Source of the DNA: Bacteroidota bacterium
GTDB taxonomy: Bacteria; Bacteroidota; Bacteroidia; Flavobacteriales; Flavobacteriaceae
DNA: 53,157 bases
Reading direction: 5' to 3'
Assembly: GCA_024280145.1 (NCBI GenBank)
Contig: JAJRQR010000090.1
Coordinates: 1 to 53,157 of the forward strand
The notes under the pieces were generated by a model, which was not told the DNA's origin, ran no database searches, and saw only the letters and a program-made list of their open reading frames with translations. Shown one piece after another: positions 45,998 to 53,157 of the stretch; the first letter of the stretch is position 1; every line of letters begins with the position of its first letter. The position numbers and the translations under genes were made by a program.

Positions 45998-46332
45998 TGC
46001 CAAAAGAAACTGGTTTTTTTGAAAAAGTATATGAAGTAGCAACAAAAATCCCCTACGGAAGGGTAACATCTTACGGAGCAATTGCCAGTTATTTAGGAAG
46101 CCCAAAAAGCGCCAGAATGGTAGGGTGGGCAATGAATGCTTCTCATTTAAATCCAGATGTTCCTGCACATCGTGTAGTAAATCGAAAAGGATTATTAACA
46201 GGGAAACATCATTTTGAAGGCACCAATTTAATGCAGCAATTACTGGAAAGTGAAGGTGTTGAGGTAATTGAAAATCAGATTCAGAATTTTGAAAAACTAT
46301 TTTGGGATCCTTCAAAAGAAATTAATTCGTAA
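45997..46332 (+). CDS. Alkyltransferase-like (Atl/MGMT-family) protein
   Basis: VATKIPYGRVTSYGAIASYLGSPKSARMVGWAM; PAHRVVNRKGLLTG has Ala in place of the catalytic Cys. Confidence 0.93.
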   Translation: MPKETGFFEKVYEVATKIPYGRVTSYGAIASYLGSPKSARMVGWAMNASHLNPDVPAHRVVNRKGLLTGKHHFEGTNLMQQLLESEGVEVIENQIQNFEKLFWDPSKEINS

Positions 46333-46366
46333 TAAATTTTATATATTTATCCAAAGTTATCCCCTA

Positions 46367-49218
46367 ATGAAAAACAAAATACTTCTTCTTTATTTTCTTC
46401 TTTGTTTTTCTATTTCTGCATTTTCACAACAATATTTTTTTAAGAATTATGGCGTTGATGAAGGAATTTCGAGTAGTGAAATATTCGACATCATTCAAGC
46501 AAAAGACCGAACATTATGGCTTGCCACCTATTTTGGAGTTAGCAACTTTAACGGTACAGAATTCACTAATTATAATAAAGAAAATGGACTAAGTGGTAAT
46601 ATAGTAAGAACAGTTTTTGAAGATTCAAAAAATAGAATTTGGGTTGGCTTTTGGGGCGACGGAATTAATTATATCGAAAATGGGAAAGTACATCAAATAT
46701 CAGACCCTATATTAGAGGAATATCCTTCAGCAATCCAGTTTTTTGAAACCCCAGACGGTACTATTTGGATTTTTGGTTCTAAAGCAATTATGCAATATAT
46801 TAATGGTGAAATAAAGTTAGTTTACACTACCAAAGGGCCTAAAGATTATGCTATACCTAATGATGTTATTCAGACCAAAGATGGTACTATTTGGGTAGCA
46901 ACTTTAGGTAGGGGTATTGCTAAAATTACTCCTTCACCTTTCAAAATAGAAATGATTAACGCCCATAATTCTACCATTAATAATATTTGCTATTCACTTT
47001 TTGAAGATGCTGATGGTTCTATTTGGATTGGGTCTTATGGTAGTATTTTTAATTATAAAAACGAAAAATTAAAAGTATATGCACTACAAGGTAAAAGGCA
47101 TAGGAATAGAGTTGGGAGTATTGATGAAGATGAAAAAGGGCAACTTTGGCTAGGACTTTATGGAAACGGAATGGCGATTTATGATAAAAAAGAATCGTTT
47201 AAAATTATTAATTCTTCCAATGGATTATCAGATGACTATACCTATAAACTTTTGATTGATTCAGAAAAAATAAATGGATTATTTCACAGAATAACGGACT
47301 TTCAAAATTTAGAGATTTTGCATTTGTTTACTATTCAGAAAAAGAAGGATTGCCTAACAAACAGGTGAACGATTTTGCTATTAGTAAAGGAGATACTCTT
47401 GTATTAGCCACAAAAAGAGGAATTGTTAGTTTTTCTAATGGTGAGTTTTTTAATCAGAAATTAAATGATGAATATGTACATGCAGTTGCTTTTGATGCAA
47501 ATAATGAATTATGGTGTACAACTACCAAGAAATATGGAAAAGTAGCTGAAAAATTAAAAGATCATATACCAGAAGAAACCTTTTATGACATCGTATTAAA
47601 AAAGGATAGCACGCTTTTATTTGCTGGAGAGTTTAACATTCAAGAAATTAAAAAAGACAAAGTTAAAACCACTAGAGTTTTCGATTTAAAAGCAAGGGAT
47701 TTAATGAACTTAGGTAATAAAACGATTATCGCGACTTCCTATGTTTTAAAAGAATATGATAAAGGAAAGGTAAAAGCTATTACTGAATTACCAGAAACTA
47801 TTAATACTTTTTTAGAAATTTCTGAGCTTTCAGATACCGAATTTTTTGCAGGTACTTTAGATGAATTAGTGTATATTAAATTAATTGATACAAGCTACAC
47901 ATATAAATTATATTCAAGAAATAAATTTCCTTCCATTCGCGATTTTAATTCCTTATTGGTAGATGAAAATAACTTATGGGTTGGATCATCATCGTCTCTT
48001 TCTAAAATAAATATTGATTATCTAATAAATAAAGATTCTATAGTTGTAGAAACCTATGGAAGAGACATTGGTTTTATTAAAGGTGAACCCGGAAAAGCAA
48101 TTGCAAAAATTAACAACACTATATATTTAGGAACATCTAATGGATTATTAGAATTTTCTCCATTAAAATTCAATAAAAGCACCATTGCGCCAGATTTAAA
48201 ATTAAAAGAAATTGCTTTGTTTTCAGAAAAACTGAACGATAGTCTGTATTTAAATAATAATAAAATTACACTGCCCTATAATAAAAATCACTTAACATTT
48301 AAGCTCACCGCAGTTTCTTTAACCTACCCTGAAAACATTCAATATAAGTACCGTTTAAAAGGATTGAGGAATAGTGAATGGTCAAGTCCAATACATAATC
48401 GGGAGGTGGTTTATTCCTATTTGCCACCTGGGAGTTACACTTTTGAGTTTACTGCTGACAATGGTTTTGGAGTTTGGCAAGAAACGCCAAAAACATATAG
48501 TTTCGTAATTGAATTACCCTTTTGGAAAACCGATTGGTTTAAGTTTTTATTATCAGGATCAGTTTTAATATTGGGATTGTCTTTTGTTTATTTTACTCAA
48601 AGAAGAAAGAAAAATGATCAAAAAAAGTACACCATGGCATTATTAGAAGCCCAAGAAAAAGAACGTAAAAGAGTGTCAAAAGAACTTCATGATGGTGTTG
48701 GACAAAAACTACTTTTAATTAAAAATTCGCTTACTCTAAATCCTACAAAAACTTCAGATATTGTAGATTCAACGATTGAAGATATTAGGTCTATCTCAAG
48801 AAATCTTCATCCCGTGCAATTAGAAAAATTTGGACTTACAAAGGCAATCGAAAATATTGTAGAAGATCTAAATGATTTAACTACTATTTTCTTTTCAGAC
48901 GAAATAGATAATATTGATAACTTTTTTCCAAAGGAAAAAGAAATATATTTGTATAGAATAATTCAGGAATGCATCAATAATATTATAAAACATTCCAATG
49001 CGACAGCGGCCCGAATTGTCGCAAAAAAAGAAGGGAATAAAGTCACAATCACCATTCAAGACAATGGAAAAGGTTTTAATTTAGACGAAAGTTTAAACAA
49101 ACAAAAAAGCTTTGGACTTAAATCTTTACAAGAAAGAGTAGATTTCTTAAAAGGAAAAATTAGTTTTAATACCGAAGAAAATAAAGGAACCATCGTAACA
49201 ATAACATCCTACAAATGA
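46367..49218 (+). pseudogene. Beta-propeller sensor histidine kinase (HisKA_3 type), frameshifted
   Basis: ORFs 46268-47368 and 47350-49218 join if one A is added at 47265-47270, giving DSEKNKWIISQNNGLSKFRDFAFVYYSEKEGLPNKQ; ELHDGVGQKLLLIKNSL. Confidence 0.85.
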
Positions 49219-49843
49219 TTTCTGAAAACTTAAAAATTGTAATAGCAGATGACCACCCATTATTATTAGAAGGGATTATTTCTGTGATTATAAAAGAAAT
49301 TCCTAACGTCGAACTATTCAAGGCAAACAATGGAGCTGAAGCATTACAATTAGTTTCAGAAATTAAACCGACCATCACCATTTTAGATATTGAAATGCCA
49401 TTTTTAAACGGTATTGAAGTCGCAAAAAAATATTAGAAGCAAAAATAGATACCAAAATTATTTTTCTAACCCTTCATAAAGAACGTAGTCTTTTTAATGA
49501 AATTAATCAAATGAACATTGATGGTTATGTGTTGAAAGAATTTTCAATTAAAGAAATAAGTCAATGTATTAAAACAGTTTTAAAAGGAGAAAAATATTTT
49601 AGTAAAGAAATTGAACAATTTATTGAAGAACCCATCATAGATTTTTCAATTTTTACAAAATCTGAAGTCAACGTACTAAAACTAATTTCTCAAGAAAAAA
49701 CCTCCAAAGAAATTGCAGAAATGTTATTTGTATCCATAAAAACTATTGATTCTCATCGATATAACATTTGTAAAAAACTAAATTTAAAGCCCGAAAAAAA
49801 CAGCCTTCTTAAATGGGTTTTCCAAAATTCACCTATCCTCTAA
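49215..49843 (+). pseudogene. NarL/LuxR-type response regulator, frameshifted
   Basis: Adding one A at 49424-49430 gives GIEVAKKILEAKIDTKIIFLTLHKERSLFNEINQMNIDGYVLKEFS joining receiver and HTH halves. Confidence 0.85.
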
Positions 49844-49964: not shown

Positions 49965-50459
49965 ATGAAGCAATTTTATTATTTCCTTTTTATAGGGTTA
50001 TTGAGTGTTACTGTAAGTGCTCAAAACCTCCAAAGATCATCACTGGGATCAAGTGGTGCTTCTTCCAAAATTTCTAGTTCTGACAACATCTATTATGTTA
50101 GCCAAAGTGTGGGGCAAAAAAGTGTCATTGGTACATTAATTAATGGAGAAAATGCCATTCGTCAAGGATTTCAACAACCGCCTATTCAAGTGGAAGTTTA
50201 TTCAGAAACAAACACAGATATTCAAGCCGTAGTATTTCCAAACCCCGTAGATGCTTTTATTACTATTCAGTTTAATGAAGAACTTAAAAACCCTATTCAG
50301 GTAGAAATATTTGATGTTTTAGGGAAATTGATGATTAATACTTCAAAGAATCCTACCGATTCTTTTAAAATAAACATGACACATTTAGCAACAGGCACCT
50401 ATTTTTTAAACCTTAGTTCAGGAAATAGAAAATTTACTGCACGATTAATCAAAAAATAA
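49965..50459 (+). CDS. Small T9SS type A sorting domain protein
   Basis: MKQFYYFLFIGLLSVTVSAQ signal peptide; SQSVGQKSVIGTLINGENAIRQGFQQP; AVVFPNPVDAFITIQFNEE...RLIKK. Confidence 0.9.
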   Translation: MKQFYYFLFIGLLSVTVSAQNLQRSSLGSSGASSKISSSDNIYYVSQSVGQKSVIGTLINGENAIRQGFQQPPIQVEVYSETNTDIQAVVFPNPVDAFITIQFNEELKNPIQVEIFDVLGKLMINTSKNPTDSFKINMTHLATGTYFLNLSSGNRKFTARLIKK

Positions 50460-50465
50460 CCAATT

Positions 50466-51137
50466 ATGAAAAAAACATACATTATTATTTTAATGAGCAC
50501 TATTTTTAGTTTTCAGGCAATAAGTCAAGAAATATTTACTGAAACAGGGTTCTCTTTTACTTCGTTCGATTTTAAAAACTCTCAAGGAGTAGAATTGGAT
50601 AATTTACAACCTACAACAAACAATTTTATAACAATTGGCTATCGTCAAAATGTATTAAAAGATGTACTTCATGTTATCGGAGGAATTAGTTTCAATAAAT
50701 ATGGGGCTATAGGAAGTGATAATAACCTTAACCTTTTTTATGAATGGGAAACTTCTTATATGGGAATTAATATAGGTTTGGATATAAAAATTTTTAAAAC
50801 TGAAAAAATGTCTTTTTATCTAAGAGGAACTACTTCTTCAGAATTTTTGCTGCAAGGAACACAAACTCTTAACAACCAAGTTTTCGACTTAAAAGGAATT
50901 GAAGAGTTTGATAATGCCAATTTCTTCTTTAGAGGAGGAGCAATTATAGAATATAATATTTCAGAAACACTTTCAATTTTTACACAATATAAGTACGGAC
51001 AAAGTACAGAGAATGGTGATACCGAAAAGTTAAAATATAAATCGAGCGATATTGGAATAGGGCTTGTCATAAAGCTAAAGCCAAAAAAACAACCTAATAC
51101 AATAAAGGAAGAACAAGAATCAACAAATATTAAATAG
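50466..51137 (+). CDS. Outer-membrane beta-barrel-like protein
   Basis: Signal peptide; alternating amphipathic strands; SIFTQYKYGQSTENGDTEKLKYKSSDIGIGLVIKLK. Confidence 0.65.
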   Translation: MKKTYIIILMSTIFSFQAISQEIFTETGFSFTSFDFKNSQGVELDNLQPTTNNFITIGYRQNVLKDVLHVIGGISFNKYGAIGSDNNLNLFYEWETSYMGINIGLDIKIFKTEKMSFYLRGTTSSEFLLQGTQTLNNQVFDLKGIEEFDNANFFFRGGAIIEYNISETLSIFTQYKYGQSTENGDTEKLKYKSSDIGIGLVIKLKPKKQPNTIKEEQESTNIK

Positions 51138-51144
51138 ATAAATC

Positions 51145-53157
51145 ATGAAAAATTTATACACAATAATAGCAATTCTACTTATTTCAGCTGCCTCTTTTGC
51201 ACAAACAGACGGTATAAGTTATCAAGCAGTAATTTTAAATCCAGATTCCATAGAATTGCCAGGAGTTGATGCAACAGGTACTATATTACCAAATAAGACC
51301 ATTGGTATTAGCTTTACAATTATCAATGAAAATGGAAGCGTAGAATATCAAGAAACACAAAATACGATAACTGACTCTTTTGGGATGATAAACCTTTTTA
51401 TTGGTGAGGGCAATCAAACCGGCGGGAATAGTTTTACTGAAATTAACTGGGATGGAACTCCTAAAAACCTTGAAGTAGATATCGATTTTGAAGGAGGCAC
51501 AAACTTTGTAACACTCGGAAGTCAAAAATTAACTTTCACTCCTTATGCTTTTCATAGAAATATTAATGCCACAGGAAATTTAAATGTTGATGGAAATACG
51601 GTTTTTAATGGAGATTTTTTAGTTGAAGGAATCACAACTTTTAATAACGATCTAATTATTGAAGGACTATTAACAGTTAATAATGATTTAACGGTAACAG
51701 GAAACACAACTTTTGATGGAGATACAATGATTACAGGTGCTCTAGGTGTTCAAGGAGTTACCACATTGGAAGATTCGTTTTTTGTTGAAGGTGCTTCAAA
51801 CTTAAATAATGAATTAAATGTAACTAATGCAAGTGCAACAAATCTTACAGGAAGCCTTACTGTAGATGGTATTGCAGATTTAAACAATCAGGTTAATATT
51901 GCAGGAAATACTAACCTTGAAGGAGATCTGACAGTTCAAGGAATATCAAATTTAAATAACGAATTAAATGTAAACAATGCAAGTCCAACAACATTAACAG
52001 GAACTTTATCCGTTTCAGAAACAACATTATTAAATAATAACCTGGATGTTCAAGGAGCTTCTAATTTAATGGGAACACTTCAAGTTGAAGAGGAATCATT
52101 ATTTAATAATAATGTTTCAATTTCTGGAATAACTAATCTGGAAAATGACCTTAATGTTGATGGGAACACAAACCTTAATAATAATTTTAATGTAAATAAC
52201 CAAAGTCCATCAAAATTAACAGGAACTTTAGAGGTTGATGGAGTTTCTACTTTTAATGACGACCTTATAATAGAAGGAACTACCTATATGAACAATGGCT
52301 TGTCCGTTACAGGAAACACAACATTAAATGGGGATTTAAGTGTTAATGGTAAAGCTAGAATAGATGAAGAATTAGATGTAAACGGGGAAACTACACTAAA
52401 CAATATTTTAAATGTAACTAATGGAAGTAATACAAATCTATCTGGAGATTTGGTAGTAGGCGGAGGAACTTTATTAAATGACAGATTAATTGTTGAAGGA
52501 AGAACAAATATTAACAATCAACTAAATGTTCTGCAAAACACCACAGTAGGAGGGTCGTTAGATATAGCAGGTGCTACAAGATTAGCAGATAGTTTAACCG
52601 TTGGTGGAATTACAAATATTAATAACTCCTTAACTATTAATAATGCAAGTCCAACAAGTTTAACAGGAACTTTAGTTGTAGATGGTCAAACTACTTTTAA
52701 TGACGACCTGATTATTGAAGGAACAACTTTTATTAATAGTGATTTAGAAGTAGCAGGTAATACAAGTGTTGGAGGAGGCATTACTGTTGATGGAAAAGGT
52801 TTTATTGGAGGAAATTTTACAGTAGACGGAAGAACACATTTAAAAGATGAGGTATCTATTGAAGGGGTAACATCTGTTAATAATACTTTAAATGTAACCC
52901 ATCAAAGCGATACTAATTTATCAGGAATGCTTAATGTAACAGGGGTTTCTAATTTAAACAACGATTTAAATGTTCAAGGAAAGACCAATTTAGAAGATGA
53001 ATTTAATGTTAATAATGCGAGTGTTTCTAATCTTTCAGGAGTATTAAACGTAACAGGGGTTTCCAATTTAAACAACGATTTAAACGTTCAAGGAAAGACC
53101 AATTTAGAAGATGAGTTTAATGTTAATAACGCGAGTGTTTCTAATCTTTCAGGAGTA
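51145..53157 (+). CDS. Giant repeat surface protein, truncated by the window end
   Basis: ATG at 51145, open for 671 codons to the window end; MKNLYTIIAILLISAASFAQTDGISYQAVILNP... then 42 repeat units. Confidence 0.92.
   Translation, partial: MKNLYTIIAILLISAASFAQTDGISYQAVILNPDSIELPGVDATGTILPNKTIGISFTIINENGSVEYQETQNTITDSFGMINLFIGEGNQTGGNSFTEINWDGTPKNLEVDIDFEGGTNFVTLGSQKLTFTPYAFHRNINATGNLNVDGNTVFNGDFLVEGITTFNNDLIIEGLLTVNNDLTVTGNTTFDGDTMITGALGVQGVTTLEDSFFVEGASNLNNELNVTNASATNLTGSLTVDGIADLNNQVNIAGNTNLEGDLTVQGISNLNNELNVNNASPTTLTGTLSVSETTLLNNNLDVQGASNLMGTLQVEEESLFNNNVSISGITNLENDLNVDGNTNLNNNFNVNNQSPSKLTGTLEVDGVSTFNDDLIIEGTTYMNNGLSVTGNTTLNGDLSVNGKARIDEELDVNGETTLNNILNVTNGSNTNLSGDLVVGGGTLLNDRLIVEGRTNINNQLNVLQNTTVGGSLDIAGATRLADSLTVGGITNINNSLTINNASPTSLTGTLVVDGQTTFNDDLIIEGTTFINSDLEVAGNTSVGGGITVDGKGFIGGNFTVDGRTHLKDEVSIEGVTSVNNTLNVTHQSDTNLSGMLNVTGVSNLNNDLNVQGKTNLEDEFNVNNASVSNLSGVLNVTGVSNLNNDLNVQGKTNLEDEFNVNNASVSNLSGV
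51583..53157 (+). repeat. Coding tandem array of 36-nt (12-aa) units with interspersed 42-nt (14-aa) units
   Basis: 34 units of about xVxGxTxLNNDL, 8 of about NVNNASPTxLTGTL, one 6-aa half unit; summed lengths match the coordinates exactly. Confidence 0.93.

Follow-up and report, generated by a model that had tools for sequence, protein, structure and literature searches.

The window, by which we mean the whole stretch of 53,157 nucleotides analysed, ends inside a large gene, here called the fibre gene. From an ATG at position 51145 on the forward strand the frame is stop-free for 671 codons up to position 53157, which is the end of both the window and its contig (C89); re-reading of the frame agreed with the earlier note, which had reported these 671 open codons. 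Four genes on the same strand precede it. A sensor histidine kinase gene (46268–49218, +) and a LuxR-type response regulator gene (49215–49843, +) lie beside the cassette, and both frames are broken relative to intact orthologues, the kinase and regulator of a related locus (L048) each aligning in two frames. This could stem from errors of the assembly at A runs or from decay that set in recently. The third gene (49965–50459, +) encodes a small secreted protein with a mature part of about 70 aa and a T9SS type A C-terminal sorting domain (PF18962, 8e-16; TIGR04183, 7e-16). The fourth (50466–51137, +), 7 bp upstream of the fibre gene, encodes a small outer-membrane beta-barrel protein of 223 aa (PF13505, 28.4 bits for a cut-off of 28.7).

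Contig C89 ends in a near-identical 114-bp (38-aa) tandem repeat (52936–53157, +; last 222 bp 96% matching), and it is because of this terminal repeat that the assembly halted. A search of the same genome found contig C35, the end of which overlaps the last 55 bp of C89 exactly and in frame. Shared ends of this length are what a k = 55 assembly graph would leave at an unresolved tandem repeat. The continuation of the gene on C35 lies outside the window (L005:6338-7999, minus strand). It encodes more 38-aa units and a linker of LP-x-x-x-F-x-x-G repeats, after which come a globular domain, a coiled coil and a stop. An early stop just past the window, against which the earlier note had cautioned, is ruled out, since C35 carries the frame about 535 residues further. 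The join is supported by synteny in three relatives (L048, L049 and L050) that matches both contigs: each has one intact fibre gene, of 879–985 aa, between the kinase, regulator, T9SS-signal protein and barrel genes upstream, as in the window, and an Mrp-type ATPase gene (named from its sequence) downstream, as on C35. The fibre is at least 1,168 aa long if the two contigs overlap maximally; if they overlap by just the 55 bp, its length comes to about 1,206 aa, and both values are lower bounds.

Domain composition of the fibre protein

From its sequence and structure models, the protein is predicted to consist of a signal peptide, a beta-sandwich head of about 120 aa, a repeat stalk, an LP-repeat linker, a Peptidase_G2-type intramolecular chaperone and a coiled coil. 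A signal peptide and an N-terminal domain ahead of the repeats had been proposed earlier and were seen both in the sequence and in the structure model. The signal peptide (51145–51201, +; about aa 1–19, MKNLYTIIAILLISAASFA^Q) was read from the sequence, is modelled as a helix at residues 2–17 and is without a lipobox cysteine; export of the fibre by Sec is supported at the level of sequence or model.

The head (51202–51570, +; about aa 20–142) is a predicted beta-sandwich of the long 'YQAVI..ELPG' subtype, modelled with strands between residues 24 and 129 at a pLDDT of about 90 over most of the domain, and no Pfam family matched it. A head match is encoded by 26 of 59 relatives. When 24 other head-bearing proteins were scanned, they were found to carry S74 (13), YadA head (6), collagen (4) and phage fibre repeats (2), together with a single Lcl_C and a single CBM5/12 domain. 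Fibres of the collagen, YadA-head and S74 kinds are trimeric, and the simplest reading of the head is therefore that it caps trimeric fibres. One of the relatives, a complete genome from the same order (G047 contig C1; L160, L161), encodes 27 head matches, many of them in proteins of 1,000–1,700 aa.

The contig ends within the stalk (51571–53157, +). Over residues 143–671, the identity of residues at lag 12 reaches 26.5%, compared to 10.2% in shuffled sequences (z = 12.6), and hydrophobic autocorrelation peaks at lags 12 (0.58), 24 and 38. The signal at lag 38 is at least as strong as that at lag 12, so that the 12-residue unit described in the earlier note is confirmed as a period but proves to be nested in a 38-residue super-repeat (12+12+14). 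The stalk matches PHROG tail-fibre and structural-protein families, and baseplate families of phages as well. Modelled as a monomer, the repeats gave patchy short strands of moderate confidence and no continuous coil, a result that is compatible with a trimer and is not proof of one. A PDB fold search with the head and repeats returned no convincing homologue, the best matches being acyl-CoA thioesterase beta domains with a query TM below 0.2. Across relatives, stalk and linker together span 197 to 1,621 residues, and sequence or model evidence supports changes of stalk length by tandem duplication. Identity of the protein as a bactofilin was considered, on a Pfam score of 29.7 bits that lies above the cut-off, and was rejected in view of the signal peptide, head and G2 chaperone of the fibre.

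The linker, modelled with short strands every 10–11 residues, is also found in planctomycete and verrucomicrobial proteins (L075, L077, L078, L079, L085 and L114), where a long G-x-LP-x-x-x-F-x-x run stands right before the DYAEW chaperone.

The C-terminal domain was compared to Pfam, to the PDB and to its own relatives. PF11962 (Peptidase_G2, IMC autoproteolytic cleavage domain) scores 24.1–24.7 bits on the protein, against a curated cut-off of 25, and matches 47 of 48 relatives at E<=0.01 (best 1e-9). An AlphaFold2 model built from 48 sequences has a pLDDT of about 80–96 over the domain. The top two Foldseek matches of the modelled C-terminus are phi29 gp12 in its pre-mature form (3suc) and as a C-terminal fragment (3gqh), both with a probability of 1.00; the TM over the fragment is 0.58, and the E values are only 3e-3 to 4e-3. 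In the alignment, GADYAEWLE falls on WSDFAEYFE of phi29 gp12 (residues 690–698; A-D-Y-A-E on S691-D-F-A-E695). The D, Y/F, A and E of the motif are kept across the 48 bacterial members, and D278 and E281, which are invariant, align with phi29 D692 and E695, which we take to be the cleavage residues of gp12. The best sequence match of the family profile in the PDB is the chaperone domain D4 of the Dpo31 tailspike (28nb, 28lx; E 0.02–0.04). We group the domain with phi29 gp12 and G2 by predicted fold and motif, and its self-cleavage is putative.

This C-terminus can be set against what the earlier note had expected beyond the window. A phage-tail-fibre-like end is supported by the recovered 3' half and the phi29 gp12 fold match, and the coiled coil that was to be looked for ends the protein. 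The suggested S74 chaperone is absent, PF13884 giving no match at E<=1 in the fibre C-terminus, where the sequence points instead to a G2 chaperone of the self-cleaving type. Neither a T9SS sorting domain, of type A or B, nor a YadA anchor barrel was matched in the same region.

Relatives of the chaperone are encoded in 295 candidate stretches of the genome collection. The best 80 of these 295 are mostly from Bacteroidota, and also from Planctomycetota, Verrucomicrobiota, Gemmatimonadota, Ignavibacteria, Shewanella and Zetaproteobacteria. Pseudomonas jumbo phages of the PA5oct group carry a relative in a baseplate/tail-pin gene (L141, 2450–2926), with the motif KYADLAE and its acidic pair out of register. 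The fish pathogen Flavobacterium psychrophilum DSM 3660 (L100) encodes a relative in which both the repeats and the chaperone recur, and whose 5' end is likewise cut at a contig edge.

Gene neighbourhood and head subtypes

In a set chosen for a close same-strand upstream gene, Pfam placed a T9SS sorting-domain protein directly upstream of the fibre in 23 of 48 loci and one gene further in 21 of 32. When every fibre that has an intact start and another gene before it was counted by head subtype, such a protein was found at most two genes upstream of nearly all long-head fibres, of 11 of the 16 short-head fibres and of few others (mostly outside Bacteroidota). Most loci of Bacteroidota have it there, as part of a conserved cassette with the fibre and the barrel; the background in the same loci is 15 of 391 other ORFs. 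Of the 32 loci with the long head (YQAVI..PG), 31 encode the small barrel at most two genes upstream, and of the 16 with the short one (YQAVA), 0 do so. Fisher's test gives 7.5e-12 for this difference, a value that overstates the case, given that the loci lack phylogenetic independence. Lineage also partly confounds both head subtype and barrel. The order of the genes varies (T9SS-barrel-fibre or barrel-T9SS-fibre), which argues that the link between barrel and head is not the simple inheritance of one fixed block. Two loci with long-type heads and other C-termini (L148, L151) have both the barrel and the T9SS neighbour; a third long-head locus (L149) is an exception and has neither. Another genome of the window's genus (G019) encodes two fibres with the short head, which have a small T9SS-like neighbour but no barrel. 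Domain co-variation by distance gave no discrimination among the head, the chaperone, the barrel and the T9SS protein, head and chaperone being hardly separated (partial r 0.42 vs 0.34 for the barrel).

The genome from which the window comes encodes SprA and has 84 T9SS sorting-domain matches. It also has seven S74 matches (C142, C171, C3, C86, C192 and C183 of G000) on proteins with another type of head (QVGIGTTNP), and hence encodes two kinds of chaperone-ended fibre. No barrel or small T9SS-signal neighbour was found at these S74 fibres in the stretches fetched, several of which are cut by contig ends or repeats. In Winogradskyella-type and related loci (L098, L106, L109, L110, L112, L117, L119, L123 and L126), a second T9SS-signal-like gene lies directly 3' of the fibre gene.

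A probable trimeric surface fibre and its alternatives

The reading that we favour is that of a homotrimeric, phage-tail-fibre-like adhesive surface fibre with a self-cutting G2 chaperone and a head docked on the barrel. Taken as a whole this explanation is somewhat more probable than its negation, and its central part, that the gene product is a trimeric fibre with a G2 chaperone, is very probable. The coiled coil and the chaperone would gather three chains and start the folding of an intertwined stalk. The chaperone may then cut itself off between the A and the D of GADYAEW, after which the tip of the mature fibre would be formed by the LP-repeat linker. The head would stay at the cell and dock on the neighbouring small barrel with the tip pointing outward, and the small T9SS-exported neighbour might help to export the fibre or to anchor it outside. 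The fibre could act as an adhesive spacer or as a recognition fibre, and the two-component system encoded beside the cassette may control it. Since the barrel tracks the head subtype, it is the prime candidate for the docking partner of the head, an assignment that we make tentatively and at slightly less than even chances.

The earlier note had left the choice between a long beta-solenoid and a trimeric fibre on the cell surface. The fibre is supported by the 3' end found on C35, the match to the fold of phi29 gp12 and the modules of the head relatives, and the solenoid is weakened by the patchy monomer model and by the obligately trimeric stalks on relatives of the head. In a solenoid, the stalk would be a monomeric LbH- or bactofilin-like coil in which each strand or turn takes up 6 or 12 residues, with the C-terminal domain serving just as a cap. 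The bactofilin score (29.7 bits for a cut-off of 27.9), weak LpxA/LpxD matches, the hexad sub-period of the repeats and the short strands every six residues at 182–214 of the model speak for it. However, bactofilins are cytoplasmic and have neither signal peptide nor head, unlike the fibre; the monomer model is irregular across most repeats; neither a G2 chaperone nor a coiled coil would have a task on a monomer; and related heads cap trimeric stalks. We regard the solenoid as quite improbable, and a trimeric fibre of the MAT type (see below), with adhesive function, as far more likely, because collagen, YadA-head, phage-fibre and S74 modules occur in proteins with related heads. That the gene belongs to a phage or prophage tail rather than to the cell is suggested by the PHROG matches and the phi29-like chaperone, and is nevertheless extremely improbable: the protein has a Sec signal peptide, its nearest phage relatives are just 33% identical over 141 aa, and its neighbours (kinase, regulator, T9SS-signal protein, barrel and Mrp ATPase) are conserved in the chromosomes of many genera.

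A further alternative concerns the route to the surface: the fibre would cross the T9SS translocon in trans, carried by the small T9SS-signal protein, and the barrel would be an accessory or assembly factor and not the dock. The fibre indeed has no sorting domain of its own, and the T9SS-signal protein is its most constant neighbour and occurs with both head subtypes. On the other hand, we know of no trans-transport of this piggyback kind, and S74-ended fibres with related heads are mostly without a T9SS neighbour, so that these reach the surface, if at all, without it. We consider such carriage unlikely. Equally doubtful is a dedicated three-part system of Bacteroidota in which a self-cleaving, phage-type trimeric fibre and a barrel dock would be joined by a T9SS-exported helper that delivers the fibre in trans. 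For the trimeric fibre that we prefer, the association of head subtype and barrel (31/32 vs 0/16) names a concrete candidate anchor in Bacteroidota that is genetically testable. Our searches also document that many secreted fibres encoded in chromosomes carry chaperones of the phi29 type, in Bacteroidota and as far afield as Planctomycetota, Verrucomicrobiota and Shewanella, a subject on which we found no paper in the literature that we searched.

Comparison with known systems

The MAT fibres of Bdellovibrio bacteriovorus are surface adhesins of about 1,000 aa with a signal peptide, a conserved beta-rich head of about 130 aa, a long beta stalk and exchangeable C-termini, among them a self-cleaving chaperone; the surface element that holds the head was left unidentified in that study (PMC10769870). 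The window fibre likewise has, by sequence and model, a signal peptide and a conserved beta-rich head ahead of a long stalk, and its head relatives bear C-termini of several kinds, whereas its own C-terminus is G2 and not S74, and the Bacteroidota loci add a T9SS-signal protein and a barrel. We liken it to MAT by layout only and do not claim membership of that superfamily. The idea of an outer-membrane barrel holding a surface protein has a counterpart in the PorP-like proteins, which anchor type B CTD proteins (PMC9143113); the barrel of the window differs in being a small OMP_b-brl protein, and the fibre in being without a CTD.

The C-terminal domain is closest to two phage proteins. With phi29 gp12 it shares the PF11962 profile match, the predicted fold, the D..E motif and a C-terminal place after a beta stalk. 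It differs in belonging to a cellular secreted protein, in ending in an extra coiled coil, in having W after the motif where phi29 has Y, and in having A or G at P1 where phi29 has S. Domain D4 of Dpo31 resembles it at a marginal score through the motif (GSDYAEYFE in Dpo31, GADYAEWLE in the window fibre), Dpo31 itself being, unlike the window fibre, a phage depolymerase.
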